Assembly: GCA_964036295.1 (NCBI GenBank)
Contig: OZ038471.1
Span: 6,322,001-6,386,000, forward strand
DNA from: Plumapathes pennacea
Lineage: Eukaryota > Cnidaria > Anthozoa > Antipatharia > Myriopathidae
Length of the DNA: 64,000 nucleotides
Direction of reading: 5' to 3'
Below, one piece after another: positions 12,100-62,300 of this stretch (position 1 is the first letter of the stretch; the number at the start of each line of letters is the position of its first letter). The notes under the pieces were generated by a model that was given only the letters and a program-made list of their open reading frames with translations, ran no database searches and had not been told where the DNA came from. The position numbers and the translations under genes were made by a program.

Positions 12100-13497
12100 C
12101 TAATTGCTGCTGCTGCAGTCGCCGGAGAAACCGCTGTCACTCATATACGTAATCACCGACTCGGTGTTGTGCAGCCATGCGTCCTCCATGGCTTTCAGTT
12201 CCTCGATTCGTTCTCTTAACATACCAATGGAAGAGTTTTTTTCCAACTTCTCTGCAATCTTTAGCCCTTCCTCGGCAACTTTTCTCGCTAAACGTACGTT
12301 TCCTTGACGGTAGTGCTGGTCCGAGCGGGCCCTCAGCAACTGAACTTTAGTACCAAGTGGCATGCCATCACTGAGTTGATACTCAACAAAGTCAAGTCGC
12401 TTCCTCGCTTCTTCCACATCTTCATTGCGAACTCGCTGCGTGTTCCTTGCTGCCTTCGAGCTGCAGTCAAGATGAAGGGCTGCAACCCTTATATTGTAAT
12501 ACCTCTTCTTTTTTAGCTGCACTCTTAGCCTTGTGTCCCGAGCGCCATGCTCAATTGCATTTTCAAAGCATTTTTTCGCTTTCTCTCTGAATACCTCACG
12601 GCCAAGGTTGTTTGATGCTGTCGTGCTGTACATATCTAGCCATAGAGTACCGTAGTTGTAGTACAACTCCCCTCTGTCCTCTCCCGATTCGTGGTGAGAC
12701 AGCAAAAACTCCGCCTGCTGGAGACATTGCAATGCTTTGTTGAATTTCCTTTCTCGTCTATAAGCCGCGGACTTCAAAAATAACGCTCTTGCTTCGAGCA
12801 GTTCACGATTTACCAACGAGTTTCCCATGCGTATAGCAACCTTGAAGTGCTGCTTGCACTTTTTTAGGTCGTTCGCGTAATAAAATGCCATCCCCCGTTC
12901 TATCATCAAAATTGCTCTCATATCGGAGTCGTCCCTTGTTGAAGAAGACTCCAAGATGGCGCACGCATATTTCTCGTGAGCTTCAAACTGTCCATTGTCT
13001 TGAAGAACTTCCAGTTTCGTCATGATAGTTTCACATTTGACTCCTGTTATGGAACCTTGCTTTCTGATTAACGGTATACCGTATTCCAGATCAACAACTT
13101 CTTCGATTTTCATTTTATTGTGCTGAAACTCCTTGAGAGTTGTAAGGTCTTTTGTTGACAGCGTTGATTGGCCTTCGTCGAATGCTTTAATAGAAAACGT
13201 AGAGTTAAACTCTGCAATGCTTGCTGCCTCGTCTGGAGTGCTATTCTCTTTTAATATTTCATCTTCCCTGGCCACTTGTCTTCTCTTACGTCTGTGGTTA
13301 TGGCATGGCTCGACATCATTCACAAGTTCGTTCGACTTTCCAACTTGAACGACGTGGAGGTTCGTGAAAGTCAGAGTCATTCTTTCTACGTTTACGCATA
13401 TTTCCAGTTCTTTTCTCGATTCCTGCCCCAGATAGACACTCGTATCAACTCTCTGTATTGCGTCTGCGTCCCCGTGAATTGGAATAGTGCTCGACAT
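12100..13497 (-). CDS. Intronless TPR-family protein (subgroup A)
   Basis: About 465 residues. I start at the ATG at 13497 (MSSTIPIHG) because the plus-strand paralog at 41310 starts at the equivalent MSTTIPIHE; the open frame extends 24 codons further to 13569. Order: N-terminal motif MTLTFTNLHVVQVG, a His/Cys/Arg patch (EPCHNHRRKRRQ), linker IPLIRKQGSITGVKCE, then a TPR-type helical body. One TPR reads LMIERGMAFYYANDLKKCKQ and the last repeat contains RSDQHYRQGN. The protein ends DSGFSGDCSSSN. TPRs are protein-binding scaffolds; no catalytic motif is seen. It lies head-to-head with the gene at 14083, 585 bp between starts. Function unknown. Confidence 0.85.
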   Translation of the reverse strand: MSSTIPIHGDADAIQRVDTSVYLGQESRKELEICVNVERMTLTFTNLHVVQVGKSNELVNDVEPCHNHRRKRRQVAREDEILKENSTPDEAASIAEFNSTFSIKAFDEGQSTLSTKDLTTLKEFQHNKMKIEEVVDLEYGIPLIRKQGSITGVKCETIMTKLEVLQDNGQFEAHEKYACAILESSSTRDDSDMRAILMIERGMAFYYANDLKKCKQHFKVAIRMGNSLVNRELLEARALFLKSAAYRRERKFNKALQCLQQAEFLLSHHESGEDRGELYYNYGTLWLDMYSTTASNNLGREVFREKAKKCFENAIEHGARDTRLRVQLKKKRYYNIRVAALHLDCSSKAARNTQRVRNEDVEEARKRLDFVEYQLSDGMPLGTKVQLLRARSDQHYRQGNVRLARKVAEEGLKIAEKLEKNSSIGMLRERIEELKAMEDAWLHNTESVITYMSDSGFSGDCSSSN

Positions 13498-13800
13498 GAC
13501 GTTATTTTCCCGCCGTCGTCCACAGCTGGGCTGAATATGATGCAAGACCGCGTGGTATATATGGCTCATTATAATTCATGTTCTGTGCTCAGAATAGATA
13601 TTCGATTGTTCATGCATCCATTCATTTGATCCTCTTCCAGTGGCTTGCAAACTAGAAAGAAAAAACGTGTATTTTTTGTAACTACGACTTTTTATTCTAA
13701 TGAAAATTTTCTATATAATCCTTTTTAGGAGCCTCCTTGTCAACAGCTATAATTTTTGCATGTTTTTCATAATTTATCTGTAGATTTTGGAGTCACTCAA

Positions 13801-13822
13801 TAATTCGGGGAAATACCCTGTT
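13801..13822 (-). promoter_or_regulatory. kappaB-like promoter box, subgroup A
   Basis: On the minus strand this reads GGGTATTTCCCCGAATTATT. The core is close to the kappaB consensus GGGRNWYYCC. Matching boxes precede the related genes starting at 18004 and 41310. It lies 304 bp upstream of the start at 13497. Confidence 0.45.
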
Positions 13823-14002
13823 TTTCCATCATATGCTATTTTCGGTCCATTTGTGTTTTCTGAAAATTTAAATACACGTCATATTTCCGGTTTCGCCTTA
13901 ATAAGAGATCAAAGGCAGCTCGAGGGTGATCACAGCGAGCTTTGATAGTCGTTTATTCACCAATAGCGTTGCTTGAACATTGTGGATAGCTATATAGTCG
14001 AC

Positions 14003-14026: not shown

Positions 14027-14082
14027 AGTCCTTGGGAGTAACGCAACACAGAACTTTACTTGAAATATAATTCAGAGCGAAA

Positions 14083-15750
14083 ATGGAAACGGTTGAAGCT
14101 TGGCCGGAACACGTTATATCCTTAACATTGGAAAACGAAATGCGTGGTGATCAGTCCGAAACTGCAGTTGAGCGGTTTCCTTCGGATGTTTCCGGCTCTG
14201 AGGGCACGATGGATGGCTCTGCAAGACTGAGAAACCGAAACGAAACAGAGATTGCTTCCGATCCCTCCAACGACAACGGCGACTCGGAAGCAATGCATTG
14301 GGTCACTGTAAACCCGAACTTAATGAATGGCGGAACAGTATCAGTGGAAATTGAGTACTCGAAAGAGATGCCAGCCAACAATGGTTCGTATACTATTTGT
14401 GCCAAAGAGTTGACTATCGAAGTGAATAGATGTGGTAACGTAATACAGGGTGACAACACAACGACCACCATTTGCAATCATGAGCATCACTGTTACAAAT
14501 GTAAGCCTCCATCGGCAACTTCTTCGTTCGGCGCAGTGGTTTCAGACGGGCCAACCAATAGCAGTCGTCCTCAAACTCCATCTTCTTTCAGCAAGTCTGA
14601 CCAAGGAAAGCAACGACAGAAACGAAAACCACTAAGAAAGAAAGGGAGGAAGGAAAGCGACATAAGGATATCCGGCGATGCTTCAAAGGTTCGAAAGCGG
14701 CTTTATTTCGGCGGTCTTTCCACGGCTACGACGGATCTTGTCAGAGATCTTGACTCTTACGGAAACCACGAGGATTCGGCTGTTAAAAGATTTATCGGCA
14801 GCTGGTGTCGAACTGCCATATCCTATCTTCTCCGTGAGTGCTCCGAGCAGGAAAATTACGAAGACGTTAAAGGTCTTTTGGAAAAAGCTACTGAGGCTAT
14901 TGCCGAGGAAGACTTGGTAGAGTGTATTGGTAATCTTATGGCAGTTTTACGGCTCAGTAAGGATGACCTCAAAGAAGCGACGGTTATTACAACAGATGTT
15001 CGGTTTGTTTTGGCGCAGTTTTACTCCATCAAAAACAAGCCAAGCCTTGCTCTTGAGCAGTTGAAGTTGATAAAGTTGAGTTGCTGTTCGGAAGAGCAAA
15101 AAAGCAGGATTCTACTGAAGACTGGCGAAACTTCTGCTCGGATTGCGCAGGAATGCGCCGGCGAAGAGGCGAGGTCGAGTTGTGAAGTGATGGTGGAGGC
15201 CGAAAAGCACTTCGAGGAAGCCTTGAAAAACTGCAGTGGCAAGATGATGATGACACGACAAGACCAACAAGCAATCAAAGACGCCTGCCATATGGGAATG
15301 GCGAAGCTGCTTCTCAGAACGGACAAGCCACTGACATGCGAGGGATCTGCACCCTCGAAAGAAAACTTACAAAAAGCATCAGAACATATTGATCACTTAG
15401 AAATACGAACAGTAGATTTCTCTCCTCTCATGGAAGCTCAGTATTTTCTTCTCAAGGCGTACTATCAGTGTTTTGTTAGTAACTATGAATATGCTCATGC
15501 CAGTGCTATGAAAGCAAGGGAATTAGCGGAAAAATGGAACTTTGAGGGAGAGCGCAAGTTGGCAACGGCGGCCATTTCCTTTCTGTCGTTAAAGCTGCCT
15601 GAGAAGTGTGGAACAGACGACAATCTTCGCTCATTTGCCGGTATTTCGAGCTTGGAGGATTGGGAGAGTTCTTCAGCTGACAACGAGGATTCAGACCCTC
15701 AAGACTGCGATGATAAATTAAACTTGTCGGATTCTGATTCAGATTTTTAG
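14083..15750 (+). CDS. Divergent intronless TPR-family protein with basic NLS-like cluster
   Basis: 555 residues from ATG at 14083. It is the most divergent array member. The TPR body aligns with the others: LQKASEHIDHLEI matches the family AKKHLDFVEYQL segment, and AQYFLLKAYYQCF matches IQLLKARSDQYY. Distinct features are a Ser/Thr-rich acidic N terminus, a Cys/His cluster CNHEHHCYKC (131-140), and a strongly basic stretch KQRQKRKPLRKKGRK (176-190) that looks like a nuclear localisation signal. The usual MPLIKKxGS linker is absent. The C terminus is acidic (SDSDSDF) and lacks the DSG[F/W/C]S tag of the others. It is divergently arranged with the gene at 12100. A nuclear role is inference only. 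Confidence 0.8.
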   Translation: METVEAWPEHVISLTLENEMRGDQSETAVERFPSDVSGSEGTMDGSARLRNRNETEIASDPSNDNGDSEAMHWVTVNPNLMNGGTVSVEIEYSKEMPANNGSYTICAKELTIEVNRCGNVIQGDNTTTTICNHEHHCYKCKPPSATSSFGAVVSDGPTNSSRPQTPSSFSKSDQGKQRQKRKPLRKKGRKESDIRISGDASKVRKRLYFGGLSTATTDLVRDLDSYGNHEDSAVKRFIGSWCRTAISYLLRECSEQENYEDVKGLLEKATEAIAEEDLVECIGNLMAVLRLSKDDLKEATVITTDVRFVLAQFYSIKNKPSLALEQLKLIKLSCCSEEQKSRILLKTGETSARIAQECAGEEARSSCEVMVEAEKHFEEALKNCSGKMMMTRQDQQAIKDACHMGMAKLLLRTDKPLTCEGSAPSKENLQKASEHIDHLEIRTVDFSPLMEAQYFLLKAYYQCFVSNYEYAHASAMKARELAEKWNFEGERKLATAAISFLSLKLPEKCGTDDNLRSFAGISSLEDWESSSADNEDSDPQDCDDKLNLSDSDSDF

Positions 15751-16612: not shown

Positions 16613-18004
16613 TCAATCACTACCACTGCAATCACCAGACCAGCCGCTGTCCGTCGTTGTCGTGCTGACGGGCGCATACACGGGTGATCGCATATCTTCC
16701 ATGGTTTGTAGCGCCTCTATTCGTTTCTTCAACATGGGAATCGCTGAGTTCTTTTCTAACTTCTCTGCAATCTCGATCGCTTTCTTGGCAACTTCTATTG
16801 CTAAACGTAGGTTTCCCTCACGGTAGTGCTGGTCAGAACGGATCGTCCACAGCTGAACTTTGGTACCAAGGGGCATGCCATCACTCAGCTGGTACTCCAC
16901 CAAGTCGAGATGTTTCTGAGCTTCGTTCACGTCTTTGTCGAGAACGTGCTGTGTAATCCATGATGCTTTGGAGCCGCAGTCGAGATGAAGGACCGCCATT
17001 TTCAAATTGCTGTACCTCTTCTTCTTCAGCTGCACTCGTGTTCTTTTGTCCTGGCCTCCATACTCAATTGCCCTTTCGAAGCATTTTTGTGCTTCCTCCT
17101 TAAATATCTTGCGACCTTGTTGATTGGATGTTCTGTTGCTGTACATATCAAGCCATAAGGTGCCATATGCGTGATAAATTTCAGCTTTGTCTTCGTCGCA
17201 TTTGTGATTAGATAACAAAATCTCCGCTCGCTGTAGACTCTGCAATGCTTTGTTGAATTTCTTCTCTTGTCTGTAAACGGTCGCCTTCAGAAAGAGCGCC
17301 CTCCCTTCGAGAAGATCACGATTTACCAGCCCACTTCCCATGCGCATGACAGCAGTGAAAATCCGCTTACACCGTACGTCGTCTGCGTAGTAAAACGCAA
17401 CCCCTCGTTCGATCATCAACGCTGCGCGTATGTCTCTATCTTCCTTAGCGAGAGTAGAGTCCAAAAGCCCACAAGCAAGTGTTTCGTGCTCTTTAAACTG
17501 TCCATTATCTTGGAGTGTTTCGAGCCTCTTCACAATAGTTTCCCATTTGAATCCTTTTAGAGAACCTTGTTTCCTGATCAACGGCATAGTGCGTTCCACA
17601 TCAAGAACTCCTTCGGTTCGATCGTTCACGGCTATATCATCTCTTGTCGACCGCTTACTGACATCAGATCTGTCGGTTGATGCTGCCGGTGAGAACATCG
17701 CAGATGCCAGTTCTGGCGCATTACCCGCCTGATCTATTTGGCTGTTTTCTTTAAGTTTTCCGTCGCCGTTAGAAGCCGCCAGCTTCTGCTTTCTATTGCC
17801 TCCGTGGGCACATGACTTGAGAGATTCATCTGTAAACCTGACCGAGCTTCCAACTTGAGCGACGTGAAAGTCTGCTAAAGTAACTGTTACGGTCTCTGCG
17901 TCTACGTATAGTGGCACTGGCTTGTCTGTCGAGCCTTGTTTTTGGCTGATATTTTCAATCACTCCAGGACTTACAGCGGTGCCTTCGTAAGTACTTGATG
18001 TCAT
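16613..18004 (-). CDS. Intronless TPR-family protein (subgroup A)
   Basis: 463 residues from ATG at 18004. N-terminal motif VTVTLADFHVAQVG, then a Cys-containing patch, linker MPLIRKQGSLKGFKWE (Trp replaces the usual Cys), TPR body with LMIERGVAFYYADDVRCKR and RSDQHYREGNLRL, and end DSGWSGDCSGSD. One residue is deleted relative to paralogs in the first TPR (DDVRCK for NDLKKCK). The box GGGTATTCCCCGAATATTTT at 18160-18179 lies 156 bp upstream. Function unknown. Confidence 0.84.
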   Translation of the reverse strand: MTSSTYEGTAVSPGVIENISQKQGSTDKPVPLYVDAETVTVTLADFHVAQVGSSVRFTDESLKSCAHGGNRKQKLAASNGDGKLKENSQIDQAGNAPELASAMFSPAASTDRSDVSKRSTRDDIAVNDRTEGVLDVERTMPLIRKQGSLKGFKWETIVKRLETLQDNGQFKEHETLACGLLDSTLAKEDRDIRAALMIERGVAFYYADDVRCKRIFTAVMRMGSGLVNRDLLEGRALFLKATVYRQEKKFNKALQSLQRAEILLSNHKCDEDKAEIYHAYGTLWLDMYSNRTSNQQGRKIFKEEAQKCFERAIEYGGQDKRTRVQLKKKRYSNLKMAVLHLDCGSKASWITQHVLDKDVNEAQKHLDLVEYQLSDGMPLGTKVQLWTIRSDQHYREGNLRLAIEVAKKAIEIAEKLEKNSAIPMLKKRIEALQTMEDMRSPVYAPVSTTTTDSGWSGDCSGSD

Positions 18005-18158: not shown

Positions 18159-18179
18159 ATATTCGGGGAATACCCGGAC
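18159..18179 (-). promoter_or_regulatory. kappaB-like promoter box, subgroup A
   Basis: On the minus strand it reads GGGTATTCCCCGAATATTTT, matching the box at 13801-13822 and that at 41078-41095, at a similar distance from a paralogous start codon. Confidence 0.45.
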
Positions 18180-19901: not shown

Positions 19902-21344
19902 TTAGTTACTGCTGGTATCGTCGGCGGAGCAGCCGCTATCCCTGAAAAGTTCTGGTCTAACGTCGGGCAATAGTGAAGCCAATATGTTCGCATCTTCAAT
20001 TCTCTCATTCAGTGGAATAATCTCCAGTCGCATGTTTGCTCGTGTTGCAAGGCCGAGGGCATGTTGGGCCGTTTCTTTAGCCATAGAGAACTTCCCCTCA
20101 CGGTAGTACTGGTCCGAGCGGGCTTTGAGCAGCTGAATTTCGGTGCCAAGTGGGATCCCATCGCTCAGTTGATACTCAACGAAATCAAGATGCTTCTTTG
20201 CCTCTTTGATGTCTTCATTCGTGACCCGGCGCGTTTGCCGCGCAGCTCGGGTCCCGCATTCTAGATGAAGTGCAGCGAGCCTCAAGCTGTAGTACCTTTT
20301 CTTCTTTAACTGCACCCTGGGCCTTTTGTCTCTGTCACAGTTGGCGATTGCTCGCTCGAGGTATTCTCTGGCTTGCGTTTTAAGAACGTGCCGACCTTGC
20401 TCTCCGGAAAAGCTGTTCCAGTAGAGATAAAGATACTTGAGACCATAATAATAGCATAGTTCTGAAGTGTCTTCACCCGGTTCGTGGTTGCTCAGTAGTT
20501 GGTCGGCTTGTTTGAGGTACTCAATCGCCTTGCCAAACTCATATCTGTAGACTACAGCCAACTGTACAAAGGCCCTGCCTTGTAGCAGGCTACGATTTTC
20601 AAGTTCATCCCCCATTCGTATCACGGCTTTGTAGAGTCTCCTGCTCTTCTTGAGGTCGTTCGCGTAGTAGAATGCAACTCCTCGTTCTATCATCAAACTT
20701 GCTACCATATCAGGATCTTCATTTTTCGTGTAGAACTCCAAAAGATTGCAGGCAAGTTTTTCGTGAGTTTCAAACTTTCCATTATCTTGGAGTTCCTCAA
20801 GCGTCTTCATAACAATCTCGCATCGTTTTCCAGTAAGGGAACCGTGCTTTGTAATCAGCGGCATACGGTATTCTACATTGCTGTGTTTCTCCCGAACTTC
20901 ACCTGGAGTAATATTCTCAGATATTCGCTGGTCTTCACCAGCGTATCTGACCTCGGCATTGTGCAGAATTGTCGTCGATAAATCTGAATGTACTCTGGGT
21001 GGACATGCGTCATCTGGTACACTACTTTCCTTAAGTCGTCCGTCTGTATCACGTCGCTTTAGAAGACTGCGCTGCTGTTTGCAACCTTGATCGCAGCATG
21101 GTTCGATGTCTGATACAATTCTGCCTGAATGGCCTAATTGAACAAGGGGAAAGTTTGAAAGAGTGACTGTTAATTGATCGGAAACAATTGATACGTTGTT
21201 CTCTGCGGACTCTCGCTCCTGTCGAACTATAACCGCTCCCAGCGCGAGTTTTGATCGGTTGCTTGCTGTGGCCAACAGTCCCTCTTTAATGTGAACATGT
21301 TCATCTTCATTTGAAGTATTCTCCATCTTTCTATTTTCTGCCAT
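19902..21344 (-). CDS. Intronless TPR-family protein (subgroup B1)
   Basis: 480 residues; starts at MAENRK, with an in-frame stop just upstream (TAG before ATG). Layout by residue: variable N terminus 1-55; motif LTVTLSNFPLVQLG 58-71; Cys patch EPCCDQGCKQQ 81-91; linker MPLITKHGSLTGKRCE 161-176; helical TPR body about 175-455, including SLMIERGVAFYYANDLKKSR (216-235) and RSDQYYREGKFSMAKETAQH (409-428). C-terminal tag DSGCSADDTSSN 469-480. It is about 94% identical to the gene at 25515 by inspection. The spacer upstream carries the CCAAT/kappaB module. Function unknown. Confidence 0.86.
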   Translation of the reverse strand: MAENRKMENTSNEDEHVHIKEGLLATASNRSKLALGAVIVRQERESAENNVSIVSDQLTVTLSNFPLVQLGHSGRIVSDIEPCCDQGCKQQRSLLKRRDTDGRLKESSVPDDACPPRVHSDLSTTILHNAEVRYAGEDQRISENITPGEVREKHSNVEYRMPLITKHGSLTGKRCEIVMKTLEELQDNGKFETHEKLACNLLEFYTKNEDPDMVASLMIERGVAFYYANDLKKSRRLYKAVIRMGDELENRSLLQGRAFVQLAVVYRYEFGKAIEYLKQADQLLSNHEPGEDTSELCYYYGLKYLYLYWNSFSGEQGRHVLKTQAREYLERAIANCDRDKRPRVQLKKKRYYSLRLAALHLECGTRAARQTRRVTNEDIKEAKKHLDFVEYQLSDGIPLGTEIQLLKARSDQYYREGKFSMAKETAQHALGLATRANMRLEIIPLNERIEDANILASLLPDVRPELFRDSGCSADDTSSN

Positions 21345-22474
21345 CTACGATGCTGTCGTCGCATACTCGGAGCCAGTCCGAAACTAAAATCTAGTCACTT
21401 GACCGGATTGCACATGATATGGAAAGAAAAAGTACAGCCAATTTCAGTATAGAGTTATCCGGTTTCACTAAAACGTATAGGCCAATAAAAATCCAACAAA
21501 TTAAAGGGGCTTCCCTTTCACACTGTTTTTGATGTAACCACTCGCACAATTCGTAGAATTTGTTGCAACTCCAAGAATTTGATCGTTAGTTATTGTATCA
21601 CGTGCACGGGCTGGGCCATCAATCTGGAGTTCATGTGACATGAAGGCGGCCGTGTTGGCTTCCGTTCGCTTCTGGGATTGATTTCAACATAGCCGCCAAC
21701 AATTGCTTGAAAACCATCAGGCATTTTTTGAACATAATTTGTACACAATGAGAAACGAACAGCTATATGGTTGTCACTAAATGTATTATGACTTTCTGGG
21801 CTGCCCGATGCACCCTGCCACCCACCCAGCAACCACAACTTGTCACTTGTGTCCGGAGGCAGTGACACCCGCTTGAAAACGGCTCACTGTACTCTTTTAG
21901 AAATGTACTAGAATACGACATTTACGGATGTTTGCTTGCTCTGGAAAGAATTTTGCAACATAATTTTCGTTTTAGTGTTGTAGGACCTAAGAAATGTCAA
22001 AGCCATCTTCGGAAGACAGCTGCCGAAAGTAAGTATATGTTACGCCACAAAAAAACTGACAGGAAGTGTACTAGTAACGCAATTTAATGTATTATAAACG
22101 AAAAACGTAATTACATTTCGTCACAATATGTGCGATATATTCTACTAGAGTATCCTATGTTATGCCACAAATATATATACACACTTCTTCCTACTCAGAT
22201 ATATATTGCATAAAAATACATGATTGACCTCCAAATAACTCCTGGGCATGAGTATACAGTCATTTGCAAGATCATATTCTTGTGTGTCTATAACCAGGAT
22301 TATTGTTAGTTTCTATTGAAACGGATGAGTTCGACTGCGTTACATATCTCACATATCCGACCAGTTGCGTTGAAATTAAACCGGCATCGCATGATTACGT
22401 GATAATTCTAAATCCGAGGAGCGATTAAAGGGAACCCAATAAAGCAAAGTAAATATTTACAGTTGTGTTTGAAG
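21345..22474. repeat. Spacer of duplicated unit, copy 1
   Basis: From about 21600 to 22375 it differs from 27210-27985 at only a few positions, although the flanking genes differ far more. It contains a 92-codon open frame on the minus strand (21590-21868). A diverged copy upstream of the 33907 gene does not keep that frame open in the same way, so I do not call it a gene. Confidence 0.7.
21481..21522 (-). promoter_or_regulatory. CCAAT + ISRE/kappaB-like module of the 21344 gene
   Basis: On the minus strand GTGAAAGGGAAGCCCC is followed by an AT-rich spacer and ATTGGC (inverted CCAAT). It lies about 160 bp before the start codon and recurs before most subgroup B and C genes. Confidence 0.55.
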
Positions 22475-23770
22475 TTAGCTGCTGTTGCTACCGTCGGCGG
22501 AGCAGCCGCTATCGCTCAAAAGTTTGCTAACGTCAGGCGAAGATAAAGCCAATATTTTGGTACTTTCCTCGATTCTTTCATTGAGTGGAAAAATCTCCAG
22601 TCCCATGTTTGCTCGTTCCGCAATACCGAGGGCATGTTGGGCCGTTTTTTTAGCCATAGCGAACTTCCCTTCACGGTAGTACTGGTCTGAGCGGGTTTTT
22701 AGGAGCTGAATCTCGGTGCCAAGAGAGAGTCCGTCGCTCAGTTGATACTCGACGACGTCAAGATGGTTCTTTGCCTTCTTGATGTCTTCATTCGTGACGT
22801 GGCGGGTTTCCCGTGCAGTTCGGGTCCCGCACTCCAGATGATATGCAGCGAGCCTAAGGTTGAAGTATCTCTTCCTCTTTAACTGCACTCTGGGCCTCTC
22901 GTCTCTGGCAATATTAGCAATCGAGATGTCAAGGCTTTCTCTCGCTTTTTTTTTAAAAATCTGCCGACCTTTTTTGGCGTCGGAAAAACTGCTCCAGTGC
23001 AAATCCAGCCAGTTGACACCGTAATAATAAAACACATATGAGGTGTCTTCACCTGGTTCGTGGTTGCTTAGTAGCTCCGCGGCTTGCTTGAGATACTGGA
23101 AAGCTTTGCCAAATTTCCTTTCGTACCTGTAGGTGGCACCTAACATGACACAGGCCCTTCCGAGCAGCAGGTTCCGATTTTGAAGCGACTCTCCCATTCC
23201 AAGGGCGGTTCTAAAGAGCTTTTTGCTCTTTTTGAGCTCGCCGGCATAGTAGAATTGAACTCCTCGTTCAATCATCAAACTCGCTTCCATATCGGAATTT
23301 TTGGCTTTCCTATAAAAGTCAACAAGTTTACAGGCAATGAACTCGTGTATACGGAACTGTCCATTATCTTGAAGTTCCTCCAGCGTTTTCATCACGATCT
23401 CGCACCGCTTTCCCCTGAGAGAGCCGCACTTTTTAATCAGCGGTATTCGATATTCGACATCAGTTATTGAGCAGTCTATAGCTTCCTGAGCTTCAGGTGA
23501 AGTTGATTTCTTCGTCTCGGGATTATGCAAGTTGAGACATGGATCTAGTTTCTTAGACCCTTCTTCCGCCACAGAATCGCGTATCACAACGTCCTGCTGT
23601 GGCTCACAATTTGGTTCGTCTTCTGTTACAGTTCTGCTTGAGCGTCCGATTTGAGCAAGAGGAAAGCTCCTTATATTGATATTCATTTGATCAACAGTTG
23701 GTGTCTTGCCTTTCTCACAATAAGACTTGGTCCTGAATAATATCCGCAATGTTTGGTTGGCTGACTCCAT
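22475..23770 (-). CDS. Intronless TPR-family protein (subgroup B2)
   Basis: 431 residues from ATG at 23770. Short N terminus, motif MNINIRSFPLAQIG, patch EDEPNCEPQQD, linker IPLIKKCGSLRGKRCE, TPR body with LMIERGVQFYYAGELKKSKK and RSDQYYREGKFAMAKKTAQH, and end DSGCSADGSNSS. Closest relative is the gene at 28084. The promoter module lies 209-260 bp upstream. Function unknown. Confidence 0.85.
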   Translation of the reverse strand: MESANQTLRILFRTKSYCEKGKTPTVDQMNINIRSFPLAQIGRSSRTVTEDEPNCEPQQDVVIRDSVAEEGSKKLDPCLNLHNPETKKSTSPEAQEAIDCSITDVEYRIPLIKKCGSLRGKRCEIVMKTLEELQDNGQFRIHEFIACKLVDFYRKAKNSDMEASLMIERGVQFYYAGELKKSKKLFRTALGMGESLQNRNLLLGRACVMLGATYRYERKFGKAFQYLKQAAELLSNHEPGEDTSYVFYYYGVNWLDLHWSSFSDAKKGRQIFKKKARESLDISIANIARDERPRVQLKRKRYFNLRLAAYHLECGTRTARETRHVTNEDIKKAKNHLDVVEYQLSDGLSLGTEIQLLKTRSDQYYREGKFAMAKKTAQHALGIAERANMGLEIFPLNERIEESTKILALSSPDVSKLLSDSGCSADGSNSS

Positions 23771-23978: not shown

Positions 23979-24030
23979 GCCAATAAAAATACAGCAATCG
24001 AGGGGATTTCCCTTTCAGTCACAACTCTCA
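23979..24030 (-). promoter_or_regulatory. CCAAT + ISRE/kappaB-like module of the 23770 gene
   Basis: On the minus strand it reads GACTGAAAGGGAAATCCCCT, then an AT-rich spacer and ATTGGCTG. GAAAGGGAAA fits the GAAANNGAAA IRF/ISRE core, and GGGAAATCCC fits the kappaB consensus GGGRNWYYCC exactly. The two overlap. Confidence 0.6.
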
Positions 24031-24402
24031 TAGTTTTCAGAATCAGGAGCGAGCCATAACACAATCCCAAAATTTGACATTTTCAGTAGAGCTGTACCTG
24101 ACTTCATCTGAAAAGGGTCCACGCGTCTGGCGCATTAGGCCTGGCGGCTCTTTTGAAATACTATCACCCTTTCTCACAACAGCTAAAGGTGTGTGCAGAA
24201 TAAGAAGTAAAAATGTGAAAATGATTCACACCGCAGCTTTGCAATTGTTACACCGGCAAATATGTTACTTTGCTGAATATAAAAATTATGGCTCGTTGAG
24301 GTATTAAACTCGGACATAACAAAACTCAACGTAAGGAAAGCTTTCAAATTTGACTTCCAATAGATCTTTCATAATCTACACTGACAGATACTACTTTGGC
24401 CG

Positions 24403-24480
24403 CGCAACACCGAGTCCCATTCGGCGATTACGTATATATGTGACAGTGGTTTGTCTGACGACTGCACTAGCAGCGATTAA
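24403..24480 (+). pseudogene. Relic: C-terminal end of a subgroup A TPR gene
   Basis: One plus-strand frame reads RNTESHSAITYICDSGLSDD and continues to a stop at 24478-24480. It matches the last residues of the 12100 gene (HNTESVITYMSDSGFSGD), and the flanking sequence after the stop also matches that gene's 3' flank. No TPR body is found upstream. Length 25 codons plus stop. Confidence 0.7.
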
Positions 24481-51062: not shown

Positions 51063-51204
51063 CATTTTCAGGACAGCTGTGCCACTTAAAATGAAATGAG
51101 TCTGATCAAATTTTGATTAAAGTATCCCCTGCCTTCTTGTCCCGCAAAGCGAGCTCAGCCGCATTTACGGCGGGTTCACTAATATGCGCAGTTGTTTAGG
51201 CATA

Positions 51205-51517
51205 GAGCCGTTTTCGGATGACTGTCGAAAACCAAAACCAAAGTAATCACACAGGCCAATCACAGAGACTGAGAGAAAACAGTTCAGCCAATTGGAAGCC
51301 AAAGTAAGTTACGTTTGGTCTTGCGTTTGGTTTTACTTTCCAATCAGCAGTGTGAGTACACGCCATCGCTTGTGTGAGAAGTGTTTGGTTTTGGTTTGGT
51401 TTTGTTCCTGATTGGCTGAGCATGCTGACAAACTCGTGTGGACCAATCCGAAAGCGAAGCAAACGCAAAACCAAAGCAATCACACAATTACTTTCGACAG
51501 TCATCCGAAAACTGCTC
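51205..51517. mobile_element. TA-flanked MITE, copy 2
   Basis: 313 bp, same termini as 36298-36611, TA at 51203-51204 and 51518-51519. Interior nearly the same as copies 1 and 3. Confidence 0.85.
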
Positions 51518-51914
51518 TAAAGATGTTATTAGTTCACCAATGAAGACTTTATTTCTGACACGTTGTTTATTGCTAATTATATTACTGAAGAGTCACGAGT
51601 TTTGCGCGTGCATGGCGCACGGTGGGAGGAGGGGGTGGGGGTGTTTGACATAACACGAGACTGACTTTGTCAACCGTCCTTAGCCGTTCACTGACAGCGT
51701 ACCAACTCTTTTACTTGCTAGATTAACTTCTACGTGTTATGCGTTATTTGACTCCCCACCTCTGCTGGGCAAACAAGAATACTGGTTGTATCTTTCATTT
51801 ATATTACCTTATTAAAGCGGCTAAGTGCTTAGCACTTAGCCAATTCTCTCCAACTTGGTATCCCTGTGTTCATGCTCCCCAAAGCGAGCTCAGCATTGAC
51901 GGCGGATTCACCTA

Positions 51915-52426: not shown

Positions 52427-53779
52427 TCAATTACTGCTGACCTCGGCGGACCATCCACTATCGCTCGAAGAGCGCACTGCGGTAAAATGGTCAGGGGAGA
52501 GTGGAGCCAATAGCTTTACTCTTTCTTCAATTCTCAAAGTCAATGGAATAATTTCCATGTTCCTATTTATTTGTTTCGCAAGATCCAAGGCTTTCTGGGC
52601 AGTTTCTATGGCCAAACAGAGCTTCCCCTCGCGGTAGTACTGGTCAGAGCGAGTTTTGAGAAGCTGAATTCTTTGACCCGGGCGAATTTCCTCATGCTTG
52701 ACGAAGTCAAGATGTTTCGTTGCTTCTTTGATGTCGTCATACGTCACGTGGCGGGTTTCCCGCGCAGCTCGTGTACCGCTGTCCAGGTGAAGCGCAGCAG
52801 CTCTCATGTGGATGTCTGTCTCTTTCTTTAACCGCACTCTACGCCGCTCGTCTCTTATGGAATGGGCAATGGCGCGATGGAAATACTCTTCAGCTCGCGC
52901 TTTAAACACCTGTCTACTTTTCTCATCCGCAAAACTGTTCCAGTAGACATCAAGCCAAGTAACACCGTAATAATAAAACAGTTCTGCTGTGTCCTTCCCT
53001 GGTTCGTGGTGGCTTAGTAACTGCTGAGCTTCCTGGAGACACCGAATCGCTTTTCCGAACTTTTTTTCATATCTGTAGGTCGTAGCTAATTTTACATAAG
53101 CCCTTCCTTGTAGCAGGTTACAATTTTGAAGCGACTGTCCCATATTTCGTATCACAGTTTTGCAGAGTTTTCTGCTAACCCTGTGGTCGTTTGCGTAATA
53201 GAATGCAACTCCTCGTTGTATCATCAAACTTGCTACGATATCAGGAGCTTTGTTTTTGGTTGACGTAAAAAACAATAAAAAACCACGGGCAAGGTCTTCG
53301 TGTGCATCAAACTTTCCACTATCCTGGAGTTCTTCTAGTCTTTTCATAAGAACTTCACATCGCTTTCCACTGAGGGATCCGTGCTTTTTAATCAGAGGCA
53401 TAGTGTATTCCACATCCCTTAACCAACAGTCTGTGTTTCTCCGAGTTTGACCTGAAGTTGTGCTATTCTTAGGTATTTTCCAGTCTTTGTCAGTGCAATT
53501 CGTATCCGAGTTGCGTGGAATAGTTAGCATCCTCGATGAATTTGAATGTACGTCATTCGGTGTGACAGTTTCCATTTCATCCTGAGGCGTTTGAAGACTT
53601 TGCTCAGTTGAAAGTCTGCCTGAACGTCCAATCTGAACGAGAGGAAAGTTCGACAAAGTGAGCGTCATTTGGTCAATGGCTGCTAGCTCTTCCTCCAATC
53701 TTTTGTGCTGAGAAATATCCACTCCCTGTGCGAGGTTTGATGTTCGGTTGTGCTCCATGCGAGACGTGACTGATTTCAT
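52427..53779 (-). CDS. Intronless TPR-family protein (subgroup C)
   Basis: 450 residues from ATG at 53779 (a second ATG, MEHNRTSN, is at 53758 and could be the start). Motif MTLTLSNFPLVQIG. The Cys patch is lost (TEQSLQTPQ). Linker MPLIKKHGSLSGKRCE, TPR body with LMIQRGVAFYYANDHRVSRK (Gln replaces the near-invariant Glu) and RSDQYYREGKLCLAIETAQK. End DSGWSAEVSSN. Separated from the main block by the minisatellite and the piggyBac gene. Function unknown. Confidence 0.84.
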   Translation of the reverse strand: MKSVTSRMEHNRTSNLAQGVDISQHKRLEEELAAIDQMTLTLSNFPLVQIGRSGRLSTEQSLQTPQDEMETVTPNDVHSNSSRMLTIPRNSDTNCTDKDWKIPKNSTTSGQTRRNTDCWLRDVEYTMPLIKKHGSLSGKRCEVLMKRLEELQDSGKFDAHEDLARGFLLFFTSTKNKAPDIVASLMIQRGVAFYYANDHRVSRKLCKTVIRNMGQSLQNCNLLQGRAYVKLATTYRYEKKFGKAIRCLQEAQQLLSHHEPGKDTAELFYYYGVTWLDVYWNSFADEKSRQVFKARAEEYFHRAIAHSIRDERRRVRLKKETDIHMRAAALHLDSGTRAARETRHVTYDDIKEATKHLDFVKHEEIRPGQRIQLLKTRSDQYYREGKLCLAIETAQKALDLAKQINRNMEIIPLTLRIEERVKLLAPLSPDHFTAVRSSSDSGWSAEVSSN

Positions 53780-54019: not shown

Positions 54020-54062
54020 GCCAATTATCTATGAAAAAGAAAGGGACTTACCCTTTGATTCT
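54020..54062 (-). promoter_or_regulatory. CCAAT + degenerate kappaB-like module of the 53779 gene
   Basis: On the minus strand CAAAGGGTAAGTCCCTTTCT and ATTGGCTA. The order and spacing match the other modules, with weaker match of the box. Confidence 0.4.
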
Positions 54063-55974: not shown

Positions 55975-57500
55975 CTAATCACTGCTGCTGGCCTCAGCAG
56001 ACCAGCCACTGTCACTCAAGCGTGCTGTGCTAAGTCCCAGCTCAGGTGCAGGCAGACAAACCAGGAAATTGGCTCTTTCTTCGATTCTTTCGTTAAGTGG
56101 TTTAACATGCATGTTCATCTCGACTCCTTTCGCAAGAGCCAGTGCTTCCTCGGCGGTTTCTTTGGCCATGGATAACTTCCCCTCGCGGTAGTACTGGTCG
56201 GAGCGAGTTTTGATGAGTTTGATCTTCCTGCCCAGGGGGATTTCATCGCTCGCCGCTTGACACTCAACGACGTCTAGATGTTTCTTTGCCTCCATGATGT
56301 CTTCCTTTGAAACTTTGCGAGTTTCCCGCGCAGCTCGAGTACCGCAGTCCAGGAGAAGTGTTGCAACGCTTAGGTGGAAGTGTAACTTCCTCTTTGACTG
56401 CACTCGGGGCCTATCATCTCTGTCGTTATGGGCCGCTGCACGCTCGAGGTACTCTTTTGCCCGCGCTTTCAAAACTGGTCGACCTTTGTTATCGGAAAAA
56501 CTGTTCCAGTAGAGATACAACCATTCGACAGCGTAGTTATAAAGTAACTCTGCTGTGTCTTCACCTGGTTCGTAGTGGTTCAGTAGTTCCTCTGCTCTCT
56601 GAAGATACTCGATCGCTTTACCGAATTTCTTTTGGCGTCTGTACGTCGTAGCTAACTGAAAGTAGGCCCTCCCTTGAAGCAGGTTACGATTTTGAAGCAA
56701 CTCTCCCATTCGTATCACATCTTTGTAGAGCTTCCTACTTCCTCTGAGGTCATTTTCATAATAGCGGGCCACTCCTCGCTCTATTTTCACACTTGCTACC
56801 ATATCTGGGTCGTAATTGTTCTTTGTGAAAAACTCCAAGAGATTACAAACGAGAACCTCATGTGCTTCAAATCTTCCGGCATCTTGGAGTTCTTCGAGCG
56901 TTCTCATAACAGTTTCGCATGCTTTCCAGTGAGGGAGCCCTGCTTTTTTATCAGTGGCATAGGATTTTCGACGTCGCTTAAACGGTCGACGCAATTTTGT
57001 GTATTACCAGAAGCTGCATCTACATACTCAGTTGCTTGAGGGTCTTCTTCATTGATATGTTTAGTCTCAGAAACGTGAAGAGCACACTCAATGGTTGAGA
57101 TTCGTGATGAGTTTGAAAGTCTTTTGCAAGCGTCATCTGGTACACTGTTATTCTTCAGTGGGTCTTCTGCTGTATCGGGCGCTAGTTTTAAAAGACCCTG
57201 CTGTCGCTTGCAGCCCCGCTCGCGGCACGTTTCGATCTCCGTTAAAATCTTGCTCGAATGTCCAACTTTAACCAAAGGAAAGTTTGCTAAAGTTATCGCC
57301 ATTTGACCAACGACGGATACGTCTTCGTTCGCCGATGTTTGTCCCTCGAAGATATCCGCTCTCTGTTCGGGGATGGTTTTGTTGTACGTCACGACTACCT
57401 GCTCCCCTTCTGAGCGGTTATTATGTCCATTGTTCACTTCAGTGTGAACATTCCCGTCGTCTTTCGAAGATCCTTTGTCTTTCCTTTGTACGTCTACCAT
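55975..57500 (-). pseudogene. TPR-family gene (subgroup C) with single-base frameshift
   Basis: The first part (57500 to about 56925) has start MVDVQRKD, motif MAITLANFPLVKVG, patch ETCRERGCKRQQG and linker MPLIKKQGSLTGK. The second part (to 55975) carries the TPR body (VKIERGVARYYENDLRGSRK, RSDQYYREGKLSMAKETAEE) and the tag DSGWSAEASSSD. They are in different frames: at about 56922 the sequence GCATGCTTTCC lacks one base compared with GCATCGCTTTCC in the 58277 gene, in the codon for Arg of GKRCE. Both parts are otherwise open, so the change is recent, or an assembly error. Confidence 0.82.
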
Positions 57501-57640
57501 GTTTGGTGTTGATGCTGTGTAGAGTTATTAGGATTGGGAAAAAGCCCAGTGCGAAGTAACTTACACTTGATCTGTATACTGCGCGAAATGAAAGCACATT
57601 CTTCCGGTTTCACTATTAGCGGACTCAAAGTGCTTACGTA

Positions 57641-57682
57641 TAAGCCAATAAAAATTCAACAAATTCAGGGGATTACCCTAGT
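57641..57682 (-). promoter_or_regulatory. CCAAT + kappaB-like module of the 57500 gene
   Basis: On the minus strand CTAGGGTAATCCCCTGAATT and TTTTATTGGCTTATACG, 165 bp before the ATG. Confidence 0.5.
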
Positions 57683-58021
57683 TCTGATATGGTGATGTCA
57701 CAAATATATTTTGCAAGCCACTTTAATATTAACCTGAGTTGATAAAACTTTAACAGAAGGGATTTCCGTTGACTGCGTTCAGAACAACCTCTGACCTTTT
57801 CAGAACAACCACTGAATTTTGGACCGAGAATCATGCACTACAAACTCTAATACTGAGCAAACCCAGAGTAATACTGAGACATGATCATTGTTCCAGTCAA
57901 ACCTCTATTAAGCGCCCTCCTCGGTTTAGCAAAACGGTTTCTGGGTAACAATGTTGGGCGATGTTGTGACAACATGTTGCGTTCCTTTGCTCAGGCCTTT
58001 ACTTGTCGACATCATTTATTG

Positions 58022-58183
58022 TCCAACTTGAACTAAAGGAAATTTCCCTAGAGCTATTGTCATTTGACCAACGACAGATACGTCTTCTTTGACCAATGTT
58101 TGTCCCTTGAAGATATCCGCTCTCTGTTCGAGGCTGGCTCTGGTTGTACGTCACGGCTACCCGCTCCCCTTCTTAGCGGCATA
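58022..58183 (-). pseudogene. Relic: N-terminal segment of a subgroup C TPR gene
   Basis: Matches the 57275-57430 part of the neighbouring gene, including the motif region (VGQMTIALGKFPLVQVG) and the preceding ADIFKGQTLVKEDVS. Nothing of the TPR body follows. Confidence 0.7.
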
Positions 58184-58276: not shown

Positions 58277-59725
58277 CTAAGCACTGCAGCTGCTGACCCC
58301 AGCAGACCAGCCACTGTCGCTTATGAAGCGTGACATGTCACGTAAGGGTGGAGCAATTTGTAGCAAGTTGCTTCTTTCTTTAATTCTCTCGTTCAGTGGA
58401 CCAATATGCATGTTCATGTTTATCCGTTTCGCGAGAGCCAGGGCTTCCTGGGCAGTTTCTTTGGCCACAAAGAACTTCCCCTCACGGTAGTACTGGTCAG
58501 AGCGGGTTATCAACAGCTTAATTTCTATGCTAGGAGAGATGCAATTGCTGAGGTAATGCTCAACGAAGTCAAGAAGTTTCTTTGCCTTTCTTATGTCTTC
58601 ACCCGTCACCTGCCGAGTTTCCCGCGCAGCTCGGGTACCGCAGTCCAGATGAAGTCCAGCAAGCCTGATATTGAACAGAATGTTCTTTTTTAATTGCACC
58701 CTGGGTCTCTCGTCTTTAGCGGAGTGAGCAATAGCGAGCTCGTAGTACTCTTTTGCGCGTGATTTAGACACCTGTCGACTTTTGTCATCGGCAAAATTGT
58801 TCCAATGAAAATGCAGCCATTCGACAGCGTAGTTATAAAATAACTCTGCTGTGTCTTCACCTGGTTCGTAGTGGCTCAGTAACTGTTCTGCTTTCTGGAG
58901 GTACTTGATCGCTGTGCCGAACTTCGTTTGACGTCTGTACGTTGTAGCTAACAGAAAGTAGGCCCTCCCTTGAAGCAGGTTACGATTTTGAAGCGACTCT
59001 CCCATTTGTATCACATCTTTGTAGAGCTTTCTACTTCCTCTGAGGTCATTTTCATAGTAGTGGGCCACTCCTCGCTCTATCTTCACACTTGCTACCATAT
59101 CTGGGTCGTTGTTCTTTGTGAAAAACTCCAAAAGATCACAGACGAGAACCTCGTGTGTTTCAAATCTTCCGGCATCTTGGAGTTCTTCGAGCGTTCTCAT
59201 AACAGTTTCGCATCGCTTTCCAGTGAGGGAGCCCTGCTTTTTTATCCGTGGCATAGGATTTTCGACGTCGACCAAACGGTCGACGTGTTTTTGTGTTTGA
59301 CCAGCAGCTGGCACATCGTTATCCCTAGTTGTTTGAGCGTCGTCATAGTTATATCTAGTCTCAACAATGGGAACAGCGGGAATGCTTGAGGTTCGTGGCG
59401 AGTGTAATTTGTATGCGTCATTTGGTACACTATTAATGTCATCTGATATGCTGCTCACCTTTAGTGGGGTTTTTCCCTGGTCGCGACACGATTCAATCTG
59501 AATTGAAATCTTTCCAAAATGTCCAACTTTAACAAAAGGAAAGTTAGCTAAAGTTACTGTCACGTGACCAACGAAGGAAACGTCTTCGCTCACCGATGTT
59601 GAGTCTTTCAAGACATCCGCTCCCCGTTCGCTTTCCGAACAGTTACTTTGTCCGTTATTCACGTCAGTGTGAATATTTCCATCTTCGTTCGATGCTCTTT
59701 CGTCTTTCCTTTCGGCCGCTGCCAT
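58277..59725 (-). CDS. Intronless TPR-family protein (subgroup C), likely mosaic
   Basis: 482 residues from ATG 59725 (MAAAERKD). Motif VTVTLANFPFVKVG, Cys patch reduced (IESCRDQGKT), linker MPRIKKQGSLTGKRCE, TPR body with VKIERGVAHYYENDLRGSRK and RSDQYYREGKFFVAKETAQE, end DSGWSAGVSSCSA. The early body (ETVMRTLEELQDAGRFE) follows the 55975 gene. From the first TPR to the stop it follows the 37349 gene, down to the terminal SSCSA. Function unknown. Confidence 0.85.
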   Translation of the reverse strand: MAAAERKDERASNEDGNIHTDVNNGQSNCSESERGADVLKDSTSVSEDVSFVGHVTVTLANFPFVKVGHFGKISIQIESCRDQGKTPLKVSSISDDINSVPNDAYKLHSPRTSSIPAVPIVETRYNYDDAQTTRDNDVPAAGQTQKHVDRLVDVENPMPRIKKQGSLTGKRCETVMRTLEELQDAGRFETHEVLVCDLLEFFTKNNDPDMVASVKIERGVAHYYENDLRGSRKLYKDVIQMGESLQNRNLLQGRAYFLLATTYRRQTKFGTAIKYLQKAEQLLSHYEPGEDTAELFYNYAVEWLHFHWNNFADDKSRQVSKSRAKEYYELAIAHSAKDERPRVQLKKNILFNIRLAGLHLDCGTRAARETRQVTGEDIRKAKKLLDFVEHYLSNCISPSIEIKLLITRSDQYYREGKFFVAKETAQEALALAKRINMNMHIGPLNERIKERSNLLQIAPPLRDMSRFISDSGWSAGVSSCSA

Positions 59726-59887: not shown

Positions 59888-59921
59888 TGATTCAACAAAT
59901 TTAGGGGATTACCCTGGTTAC
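59888..59921 (-). promoter_or_regulatory. kappaB-like module of the 59725 gene
   Basis: On the minus strand CCAGGGTAATCCCCTAAATT. The CCAAT box is not present at its usual place. The flank to its left (59820-59880) resembles the flank of the 38827 gene. Confidence 0.45.
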
Positions 59922-60854
59922 CAAGAAAAAAGATGATGTCACAAAATATTTTAATTTCCTGATTTCGTTGTGGAATACCTGGATACTAGCTTCAAGCGTA
60001 GAGTATTTTCCACGTCTGTTTTGCAGTTAATTCTCGTAAGTGTCGTATATTCGCTGCCCTTCATTGGCTGTTCTTTAACAATGAGAAATGACGAAAAAAA
60101 CAACCTGCAATGTCAGAGGTGAAACACAGCCGCGATGATGAAGGTATGAAAATCTCACTCTCCAAAAGAACAAAGCAGCCAACCAATCTTAATGAAAAGG
60201 GCTAAAATAAATTGAGTTTTCATAGAGGAAGTGATCTCCATACGTCAGTTGGACGCGTTTGAGTATTGGCAACTACTGCAGGGTGCGTGTTTCTCACTGG
60301 GAGTTGATCCGTGATCTGCTACAGGTATCGTTACGTTAGTGTAGGAGATAAGAATTAGAAAATAATGATTCATCTGTATTCTCTTCCCAGACTGTAATAT
60401 ATATGTACTGCTGTCCTCTAAAGCCTTGGTTTATTTATGATAAGGACCCTCAGGTTAAAAAATAAGCTTTTCCCGCTCATTTGCGTTGACCTTGCTGGTT
60501 GAGCTCAAACTTAGTAGACGAACCCATTTTAGCGTTTGGTACGGCAACGTTACTAAAACCATACAAATTATCTTAAAGTTCTCAATTCGAACAAATTTAT
60601 CTATTTTATTAATAAAGTAGCAAAACGTTGCAGGTTATTAATTTCAACGCCTTTTCTATCAGCCCTGATTTTTCCATGTCGCTATAATGCTGCATTTCTT
60701 TTATGTGATTGATTGGGCTTGTACTTTCAAGCTTGGGAGGCCGAACCACTGTCTGATACTATGTTCAAAAAACAGCTGACTCAAGCATCAGTTCTCTCCA
60801 TGTTACTCGTGCCTTCCTTAGTAATGATGAATGACAGGGGGGAAGTTTGTGATA
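59922..60854. other. Intergenic region
   Basis: AT-rich, no coding region or clear repeat recognised. Confidence 0.5.
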
Positions 60855-62300
60855 TCAGAGCTGGTCATCACTGCTGCCATCGGCTGACCAACCACTGTCA
60901 TTCATGCAACACGCCTTCATTTCACTTGCAGGAGACAGCGGTGCACAGACTAATAGATTCTCGAGCTCTTCGATCCTTGTCTCCAGTGGCGCGATTGCAG
61001 TGTTAATTTGCTTTCTCTGTGCAATCATGAGGGCATTCTTGGCCACTTCTCTTGCTGCCCAAAGGTTTCCCTGGCGGTAATGCAGGTCGGATCGGTTTAT
61101 CATTAACTGGACCCTGGTTCCCGAAGGCTCGACTCCGTCACTTAATTGAAACTCGACGAAATCAAGACGTTTCTTTGCATTTTTGATATCTTCTTCAAGA
61201 ATTGGGGATGTTCTTCGCGCTGTTGTTGTGCCACAGTTGAGATGGAGAGCCGCAATTTTCAGGTGAACATATGTCTGAAATTTCAACTGAATTCTTTGCC
61301 TGTCGTCTCTGCTACAGTTCTCGATTGCCATCTGGTAGTACCCAATCGCTTTGGCTTTGAGCTTCTCTCGTGCTTGCTTGCTTTGCACTTCTCTCGTGCT
61401 TGCTTGAGCTTCTCTCGTGCTTGCTTGCACTGGATTTTGCGCGGCGATGCTGTAAAAATTCAGCCACAGACCGCCATAATTGTAGTAGAGCTCCGCTTTA
61501 TCACCTCCAGGTTCTTGACTGTCAAACAGCTGCTCAGCATTTTGGAGACACTGAAGCGCCCTGTTGAATTTCTTCTTTCGTTTGTTTACGGCTGATAGCA
61601 GAAAATACGCTTTTCCAACGAGCAGGTCACGGTTTTTCAGCGAGTCTCCCAAGCGGATTACATCAGTAAAGAGTTGTTTACATTTTTTTAAGTCGTTCGC
61701 GTAGTAAAATGCCATTCCTCGCTCTATCATCAACGCAGCCTGCATGTCGACATCATTTCTTTCGGAGTAAAACTCGATAAGACTAGAAACGAGGCTCTCG
61801 TGCTTGTCCATCTCGTAACTGTCTTGGAGTTCTACCAAAGTTTTCGTAATGGCTTCGCATCGCTTGCCCCTCAAGGATCCACACTTATGAATCCAAGGTA
61901 AAGGGTGCTCTACACTGACTAGCATCATCTTGTCATGATCAAGCGCTTCACCTGATAAGAGTTCGGCCGTTTCGTCTAGTTTTGTTTCCCAGTTGTGTGA
62001 TGCGGCCAGGACCTTTGAGAGCGAAGTTGACCCTACCTGATTAGCATTATCAGGAATACATTCGTCCTTTAGTTGTTTGTCTTTATTTGTAGTCGCTTTT
62101 ACGAGACATTCTTGCTTCGTTTTGAGGCTGCCACAATCACAGCAACACGTCTCCACCTCTTGGACTACAGTTTTGGCTGATATTCCAACATGAGCAAGGC
62201 AGAAGTTCTGTAACTTAACAATCATTTTATCCGCATAATTAGCTACGTCTTCCCTTCCACGGATAGATTTCCCGTCTTGACAAACAGTGTTATGTTCCAT
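60855..62300 (-). CDS. Divergent intronless TPR-family protein (subgroup D)
   Basis: 481 residues from ATG 62300. Motif MIVKLQNFCLAHVG, an extended Cys patch (ETCCCDCGSLKTKQEC), linker LPWIHKCGSLRGKRCE, TPR body with LMIERGMAFYYANDLKKCKQ and RSDLHYRQGN, end DSGWSADGSSDDQL. Between the middle TPRs it has an extra repetitive segment (QASTREAQASTREVQ) encoded by triplicated TTCTCTCGTGCTTGCTTG-type DNA (about 61363-61432). No CCAAT/kappaB module was found within 400 bp upstream. Function unknown. Confidence 0.85.
   Translation of the reverse strand: MEHNTVCQDGKSIRGREDVANYADKMIVKLQNFCLAHVGISAKTVVQEVETCCCDCGSLKTKQECLVKATTNKDKQLKDECIPDNANQVGSTSLSKVLAASHNWETKLDETAELLSGEALDHDKMMLVSVEHPLPWIHKCGSLRGKRCEAITKTLVELQDSYEMDKHESLVSSLIEFYSERNDVDMQAALMIERGMAFYYANDLKKCKQLFTDVIRLGDSLKNRDLLVGKAYFLLSAVNKRKKKFNRALQCLQNAEQLFDSQEPGGDKAELYYNYGGLWLNFYSIAAQNPVQASTREAQASTREVQSKQAREKLKAKAIGYYQMAIENCSRDDRQRIQLKFQTYVHLKIAALHLNCGTTTARRTSPILEEDIKNAKKRLDFVEFQLSDGVEPSGTRVQLMINRSDLHYRQGNLWAAREVAKNALMIAQRKQINTAIAPLETRIEELENLLVCAPLSPASEMKACCMNDSGWSADGSSDDQL

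Follow-up and report, generated by a model that had tools for sequence, protein, structure and literature searches.

A cluster of intronless tetratricopeptide repeat (TPR) genes lies between positions 12,100 and 62,300 of a 64,000-nucleotide stretch of the genome of the anthozoan Plumapathes pennacea (contig OZ038471.1, C10:6322001-6386000; the whole stretch is called the window here). The genome comprises 290 Mb in 24 contigs. By tblastn of the open reading frames (ORFs) against the window and by a family hidden Markov model (HMM) run against its six frames, 15 mutually similar intronless TPR ORFs were identified, 12 of which (A, C, D, E, F, G, I, K, L, M, O and P) have an ATG and the whole domain plan. 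With one weakly matching divergent member (B) and four relics, the tally of a preliminary description of the locus stands. The members, the relics and the copies of a miniature inverted-repeat transposable element (MITE) are listed below.

12100-13569, minus strand: member A; likely start at 13497; motif resembling the RIP homotypic interaction motif (RHIM), with VQVGKSN, at 13321-13380
14083-15750, plus strand: probable divergent member B; N-terminus modelled as disordered and containing NVIQGDN (14419-14469), followed by a helical body and an acidic tail
16613-18004, minus strand: member C
19902-21344, minus strand: member D; motif LTVTLSNFPLVQLGHSGRIV at 21114-21173
22475-23770, minus strand: member E
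25515-26957, minus strand: member F; 93% identity to D
28084-29391, minus strand: member G
30121-31257, plus strand: member H; L-type copy, 5' third (arm) lost by deletion
32474-33907, minus strand: member I
34902-36395, minus strand: member J; 5' end overwritten by the MITE, no ATG ahead of the TPR body
37349-38827, minus strand: member K
41289-42737, plus strand: member L; likely start at 41310
52427-53779, minus strand: member M; motif MTLTLSNFPLVQIGRSGRLS
55975-57524, minus strand: member N; frame change (frames 57524-56907 and 56994-55975), N-terminal motif in the upstream frame
58277-59725, minus strand: member O
60855-62300, minus strand: member P; longest branch among the 15
24385-24477, plus strand: relic, C-terminal end
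29758-29855, minus strand: relic, C-terminal end
39164-39289, plus strand: relic, N-terminal end
58019-58180, minus strand: relic, N-terminal part with FPLVQVGQ
36295-36614: MITE of 320 bp with 29-nt terminal inverted repeats; further copies at 51199-51520 and 63033-63351

The 15 ORFs (339-513 aa) were aligned with a mean column identity of 48%, B being left outside. Conserved islands are an N-terminal motif within an otherwise variable arm, a PLIxKxGS(LxG) linker, the TPR body and a DSG(W/C/F/Y)S tag, which is found in all 15 ORFs and not in B. The fixed domain plan that had been proposed is thereby retained for these four elements, whereas its 'Cys patch' is variable across the alignment. 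The genes had also been called intronless; this applies to the coding frames, although an upstream untranslated exon is still possible. As stated before, the plan could not be matched to a named family; nothing beyond generic TPR fitted in Pfam or in a profile search of PDB. The relationship of B to the array is less clear. No tblastn match to the other members was detected within the window, nor a Pfam TPR match; in the family HMM search B scored just beyond the inclusion threshold (E 0.012), and with hhalign 216 columns of B aligned colinearly to the profile of the family (E 2.6e-4, probability only 42%). A model of B built on an alignment that included the family predicts a disordered N-terminus and a helical body, a plan similar to that of the family, and on this weak evidence B probably belongs to it. 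In the tree, P joins A/C/H/L and N joins K/O; a third group comprises D/F/I, E/G, M and J (with weaker support for M and J). K and O differ little at synonymous sites in the TPR body (distance 0.11) and much in the arm (0.77), linker (0.46) and tag (0.59), and this mosaic suggests gene conversion as the likely cause. In H, the first codons of the ORF are old promoter, because the deletion fuses promoter sequence to the linker.

Genome searches were performed with D, P and X2 as single-protein queries; the counts of relatives are lower bounds. Besides this cluster, at least two relatives were found at C10:1.448-1.452 Mb (X1 and X2) and at least one remote relative on C1 (Y, locus L019). X1 (578 aa) and X2 (643 aa) are adjacent long open frames (L017), 4.9 Mb from the array, with 28-29% identity to each other and alignable from the RHIM-like core onward. 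The kinship of X1 to the family was recognized by hhalign, in the TPR and the DSG tag (E 1.1e-23). In X1 and X2 the RHIM-like cores, one or two per protein, are better spaced; both proteins have TPR and a further region of beta-rich appearance, and one of them has the DSG tag. Their neighbours (L017/L018, C10:1.443-1.460 Mb) include a coiled-coil ORF and an ORF with a macro domain and a weak PARP14-like KH match. Prokaryote and viral contigs gave pattern matches only, none confirmed as relatives. In the open-licence PMC literature on RHIM with TPR or in cnidarians, corals or lancelets and on IFIT-like or intronless TPR expansions, no description of the family was recognized among the matches listed, which is weak evidence that none exists.

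For 14 of the 16 ORFs, the 450 bp ahead of the start contain a GGG-N4/5-CCC palindrome, the layout of Rel sites (NF-kB/Rel type); for 12 of them it falls within 300 bp. One site is common to A and B. The distance is 159-275 bp in 12 ORFs, 321 bp in A and 442 bp in J, where the site lies as far off because the MITE intervenes. The two ORFs without an upstream site are H, whose site is now within its frame, and P, which has none. The kB-type sites are as follows.

13808-13818: site common to the divergent pair A/B, GGGAAATACCC
18165-18175: site of C, GGGTATTCCCC
21506-21515: site of D, GGGAAGCCCC
24002-24012: site of E, GGGAAATCCCC, overlapping GAAAGGGAAA
27117-27126: site of F
29605-29615: site of G, GGGAAACCCCC, overlapping GAAAGGGAAA
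30134-30144: site of H, inside the H open frame, identical in sequence to the L site
34056-34066: site of I, GGGGAACCCCC
36826-36836: site of J, on the far side of the MITE
39008-39018: site of K, GGGTAATCCCC
41066-41076: site of L, GGGTTTTCCCC
54043-54053: site of M, GGGTAAGTCCC
57668-57678: site of N, GGGTAATCCCC
59904-59914: site of O, GGGTAATCCCC

Controls with mirrored or altered arms were found upstream of 0-1 of 16 ORFs. Altered spacings gave 4/16 (GGG-N2/3-CCC), 3-5/16 (N6/7) and 0-1/16 (N8/9), part of these counts arising from overlapping runs of C or G within one site. Of 3000 overlapping background segments from the window (300 bp each), 5.1% contain the palindrome, and so does one of 16 downstream flanks. 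Its central bases vary between sublineages while the palindrome stays. Upstream of X1 and X2, exact palindromes are present (GGGGAATCCCC / GGGGATTCCCC at -84 and -251). Counted on both strands, the 11-mer GGGGATTCCCC occurs 172 times in the 290 Mb (about 0.0006 expected per 1000 bp), against 45 for its mirror control. Among other promoter elements, ETS-type (7/15 upstream regions vs 10% of background), GAS-type (5/15 vs 8%) and CCAAT (11/15 vs 49%) sites were counted, as well as TATA (4/15 vs 36%); neither heat-shock elements nor AP-1 sites were found in any of the 15. In the genome, one Rel-homology locus was detected, in two exon pieces. Judged from these sites, the array is very probably under NF-kB control. 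Some observations lower the weight of the palindromes: P and the C1 relative Y lack them, sites of sister copies are inherited by descent and amount to about six sublineages, and the stricter form GGGRNNYYCC is found in only five of 15 upstream regions, vs 6.6% of background. Elsewhere in the genome, GGGGATTCCCC forms clusters at C2:32.56-32.62 Mb (4), C2:33.72-33.83 Mb (5) and C1:33.43-33.67 Mb (6), among the matches listed, and these may mark other NF-kB gene arrays. Of three GGGGATTCCCC stretches sampled, one has a TPR-CHAT ORF, one TNFR-domain ORFs and one no clear gene.

The best conserved island of the N-terminal arm has the consensus TxTxxNFPLVQxGxSxR. In PMC9444067, the RHIM core tetrad is given as (V/I)-Q-(V/I/L/C)-G. 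Six of the 15 aligned ORFs have an exact tetrad, each with an N four residues ahead, and this N-x3-tetrad spacing matches that of RIPK3 (NIYNCSGVQVG) and RIPK1 (TIFNSSGIQIG). Twelve tetrads occur in the 127,996 residues of the six frames of the window, and six of these are inside array ORFs. When 17-mers were scored against the two RIPK cores, the best five of 7124 were this motif; with X1, X2 and Y added, the best six were the motif cores of A, M, X2, L, F and D. Shuffled sequences rarely reached the score of A (9/1000) or X2 (40/1000). The distant paralogues have the cores TQVGAEN (X1) and LQLGDNN plus AQLGARN (X2), and in a MAFFT alignment the family motif coincides with the core of X1 and with the second of the two X2 cores. 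The pattern Q-[VILC]-G-x-x-N occurs once in A, once in X1 and twice in X2 (19 proteins, 9134 aa; four seen vs 0.2 expected). The ratio of nonsynonymous to synonymous substitution (dN/dS) of the motif is 0.24 for the pairs D-M and D-K, compared with 0.67-0.86 in the following linker, and 0.29 for D-J; these are deep pairs. As ranked by a propensity scale, no 11-mer in the arm is predicted to be more prone to aggregate than the motif in 12 of the 14 cluster members; in the other two, it is tied (E) or ranks second (J).

These similarities could also have arisen by chance. The array would then encode NF-kB-inducible TPR effectors without an amyloid role, and the motif would be a beta-hairpin or docking peptide. 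Several observations speak against a RHIM, and the missing tetrads, the shuffle scores of B and X1 and the Pfam and PDB misses speak for this explanation. Nine of the 15 ORFs lack an exact tetrad, with AQ(V/I)G in C, E and G and VQLS, VQFE, VKVG or AHVG in other members. Shuffles reached the RIPK score of B in 219/1000 and that of X1 in 934/1000 cases. The dN/dS of the motif is not low in K-O (0.44), M-J (0.46), D-E (0.63), A-P (0.69), A-C (0.77), D-I and F-I (both 0.83), E-G (0.84) and A-L (1.27). The Pfam RHIM model PF12721 matched none of the 16 ORFs (nine scanned at E<=1, eight at E<=0.01, E in both), nor pieces of A, B, C, L and M, nor X1 and X2 (E<=10), and a six-frame RHIM search of the genome gave two places, neither over the cut-off and neither in the window. 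A profile of 12 N-termini run against PDB sequences (E<=10) recovered two ULK4 kinase chains and no RIPK1 or RIPK3; in a comparable profile search, RIPK3 recovers RIPK1 only at E 0.02-0.12. AlphaFold shows the arm as disordered, which may also be what a monomeric amyloid motif gives. On the other hand, a chance origin does not sit well with the RIPK spacing of N-x3-(V/I)Q(V/I/L)G in six ORFs, or with the recurrence of Q-[VIL]-G-x-x-N in X1 and, twice, in X2. We consider TPR effectors without an amyloid role a real possibility, at well under an even chance. Because of the Pfam and PDB misses, the shuffle scores and the mixed dN/dS values, we term the motif RHIM-like and not RHIM; it resembles RHIM in sequence, and an assembly into RHIM-type amyloid is plausible, at a little under an even chance.

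The TPR body was recognized by Pfam TPR_2 over the cut-off in eight of 16 ORFs (A, C, E, G, H, K, L and O), with weaker TPR matches in D, F, I, J, M, N and P. In the AlphaFold model of A, a body of about 300 aa forms a TPR superhelix, for which (about residues 166-478) LGN/Pins, APPBP2 and MalT domain III are the best fold matches; identity to these is 9-17%, and they do not share the N-terminus and tag of the array proteins. The predicted fold appears to be a regular TPR superhelix with no special IFIT likeness. The preliminary description had drawn a parallel to vertebrate IFIT genes and proposed a comparison of folds. Convergence on IFIT-like effectors, that is, inducible clustered TPR proteins binding non-self RNA, would account for the TPR body, clustering, turnover, nearly intronless coding frames and inducible-type promoters, and the fold matches include IFIT5 and IFIT1. 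It also fits GAAANNGAAA, presumably an IRF-type site (interferon-stimulated response element, ISRE), which occurs in four of 15 upstream regions (C, E, G and M) vs 4.6% of background and overlaps the kB site in E and G. However, IFIT5 and IFIT1 rank below other TPR folds (root-mean-square deviation 7-16 A), the superhelices named above fit better, and kB-type sites are commoner than ISRE-type ones. The array proteins further have a long disordered arm and a tag, neither of which, to our knowledge, is a feature of IFIT. No IFIT was among 22 matches at E<=10 when the family profile was run against PDB sequences including IFIT5 and IFIT1, a search that distant homology would escape. In PMC3688568, the nearest invertebrate TPR matches are read as outside the IFIT family. 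We consider IFIT-like convergence quite improbable.

Alternatively, this could be a family of fast turnover with some function other than immunity, perhaps gametic or developmental, and a different regulator would then use the palindrome. Birth-and-death turnover is seen in reproductive genes too. However, the GGG-N4/5-CCC layout is that of Rel sites, X1 and X2 have a macro-domain ORF as neighbour, and TNFR-domain ORFs lie near GGGGATTCCCC copies in another stretch, and we regard such a role as quite improbable. True IFIT homology was rejected by sequence in the PDB profile search and not favoured by fold, which makes kinship with IFIT most improbable. Overall, the interpretation given in the preliminary description is partly supported.

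Anthozoan TPR proteins have been duplicated in other families as well: PMC12314368 and PMC10236652 describe TPR-CHAT (TTC28-like) and NB-ARC-TPR expansions, the TPR-CHAT family being expanded in anthozoans (PMC12314368). The same genome has at least one TPR-CHAT ORF (L038:3324-7736). In contrast, the array ORFs have neither CHAT nor NB-ARC domains in the Pfam results, and their TPRs are degenerate as opposed to near-identical TPR_12 arrays.

The array is flanked on the left by a 919-aa open frame with a PXA domain (window 4309-7068, minus strand), presumably SNX19-like. A satellite made up of about 42 copies of a 72-bp unit, with a higher-order period of 216 bp, is located at 44271-47495, and a long transposase frame (48235-49725, minus strand; DDE_Tnp_1_7, E 3.7e-73), which we take to be of piggyBac type, follows. 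About 9 kb right of the window end, an ETX/MTX2-type domain with a weak DM9 match is encoded (L021:9099-9890, minus strand). The genome also has two STING genes (L034 and L035), each with one long open frame across the ligand-binding domain; the STING gene on C12 has its best PDB matches in 5cfp/5cfo, which we assume to be sea-anemone STING.

Taken together, these features favour an immune signalling family that is inducible and undescribed, as opposed to IFIT genes. We see an even chance that the array is a lineage-expanded intracellular innate-immune family of an anthozoan, whose products, induced by NF-kB, would serve an amyloid signalling pathway as adaptors or decoys. More tentatively, the genes could encode a tandem series of RHIM-TPR proteins induced by NF-kB. 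These would form a new class of adaptors or decoys for amyloid signalling, derived from a double-RHIM TPR founder, in which copies losing the core became inhibitors. Infection or stress would activate NF-kB, which would bind the observed kB palindromes and induce the copies together. As far as alignment and model indicate, each protein consists of a flexible arm with one RHIM-like beta motif, a PLIxKxGS hinge, the TPR superhelix and the DSG tag. The TPR groove may bind a partner protein or a pathogen product, and the arm may join the stack of a signalling amyloid fibre or cap it, by analogy with RIPK1, RIPK3, ZBP1, TRIF and fly IMD. Potentially, copies with an intact core are adaptors, and those with degraded cores (VQFE, VKVG, AHVG) regulators or decoys. 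It is tempting to speculate that the DSG tag is a phospho-degron-like turnover signal. The founder was probably similar to X1/X2, and the cluster would then have lost the extra beta-rich-looking region and amplified. With the known RHIM adaptors (RIPK1, RIPK3, ZBP1 and TRIF, and fly PGRP-LC/LE and IMD with RHIM-like motifs) the array proteins share a short beta motif, present once or, in X2, twice, that has a (V/I)-Q-(V/I/L/C)-G core and lies in a disordered arm joined to a folded partner domain; they also share a link to NF-kB. They differ in that the partner domain is a TPR superhelix and not a kinase, TIR or Z-alpha domain, that many copies have a degraded tetrad, that the Pfam model misses the motif and that amyloid is putative.

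Amyloid signalling of the RHIM or RHIM-like kind is on record for mammals and flies, and related motifs occur among fungi and bacteria (PMC7885112). RIPK1 homologues with kinase, RHIM tetrad and death domain were reported from lancelets and some spiralians and not from cnidarians, according to one survey (PMC12119088). If the favoured reading of the array as NF-kB-induced adaptors or decoys is true, cnidarian RHIM-like arms on TPR scaffolds with kB switches would fill this gap by a different architecture. The family would provide short peptides and promoters open to quick testing, and its intact and degraded cores within one genome would form a natural series. Under the more tentative RHIM-TPR reading, RHIM-type signalling would be tied to NF-kB in a cnidarian and would have diversified there through birth and death.

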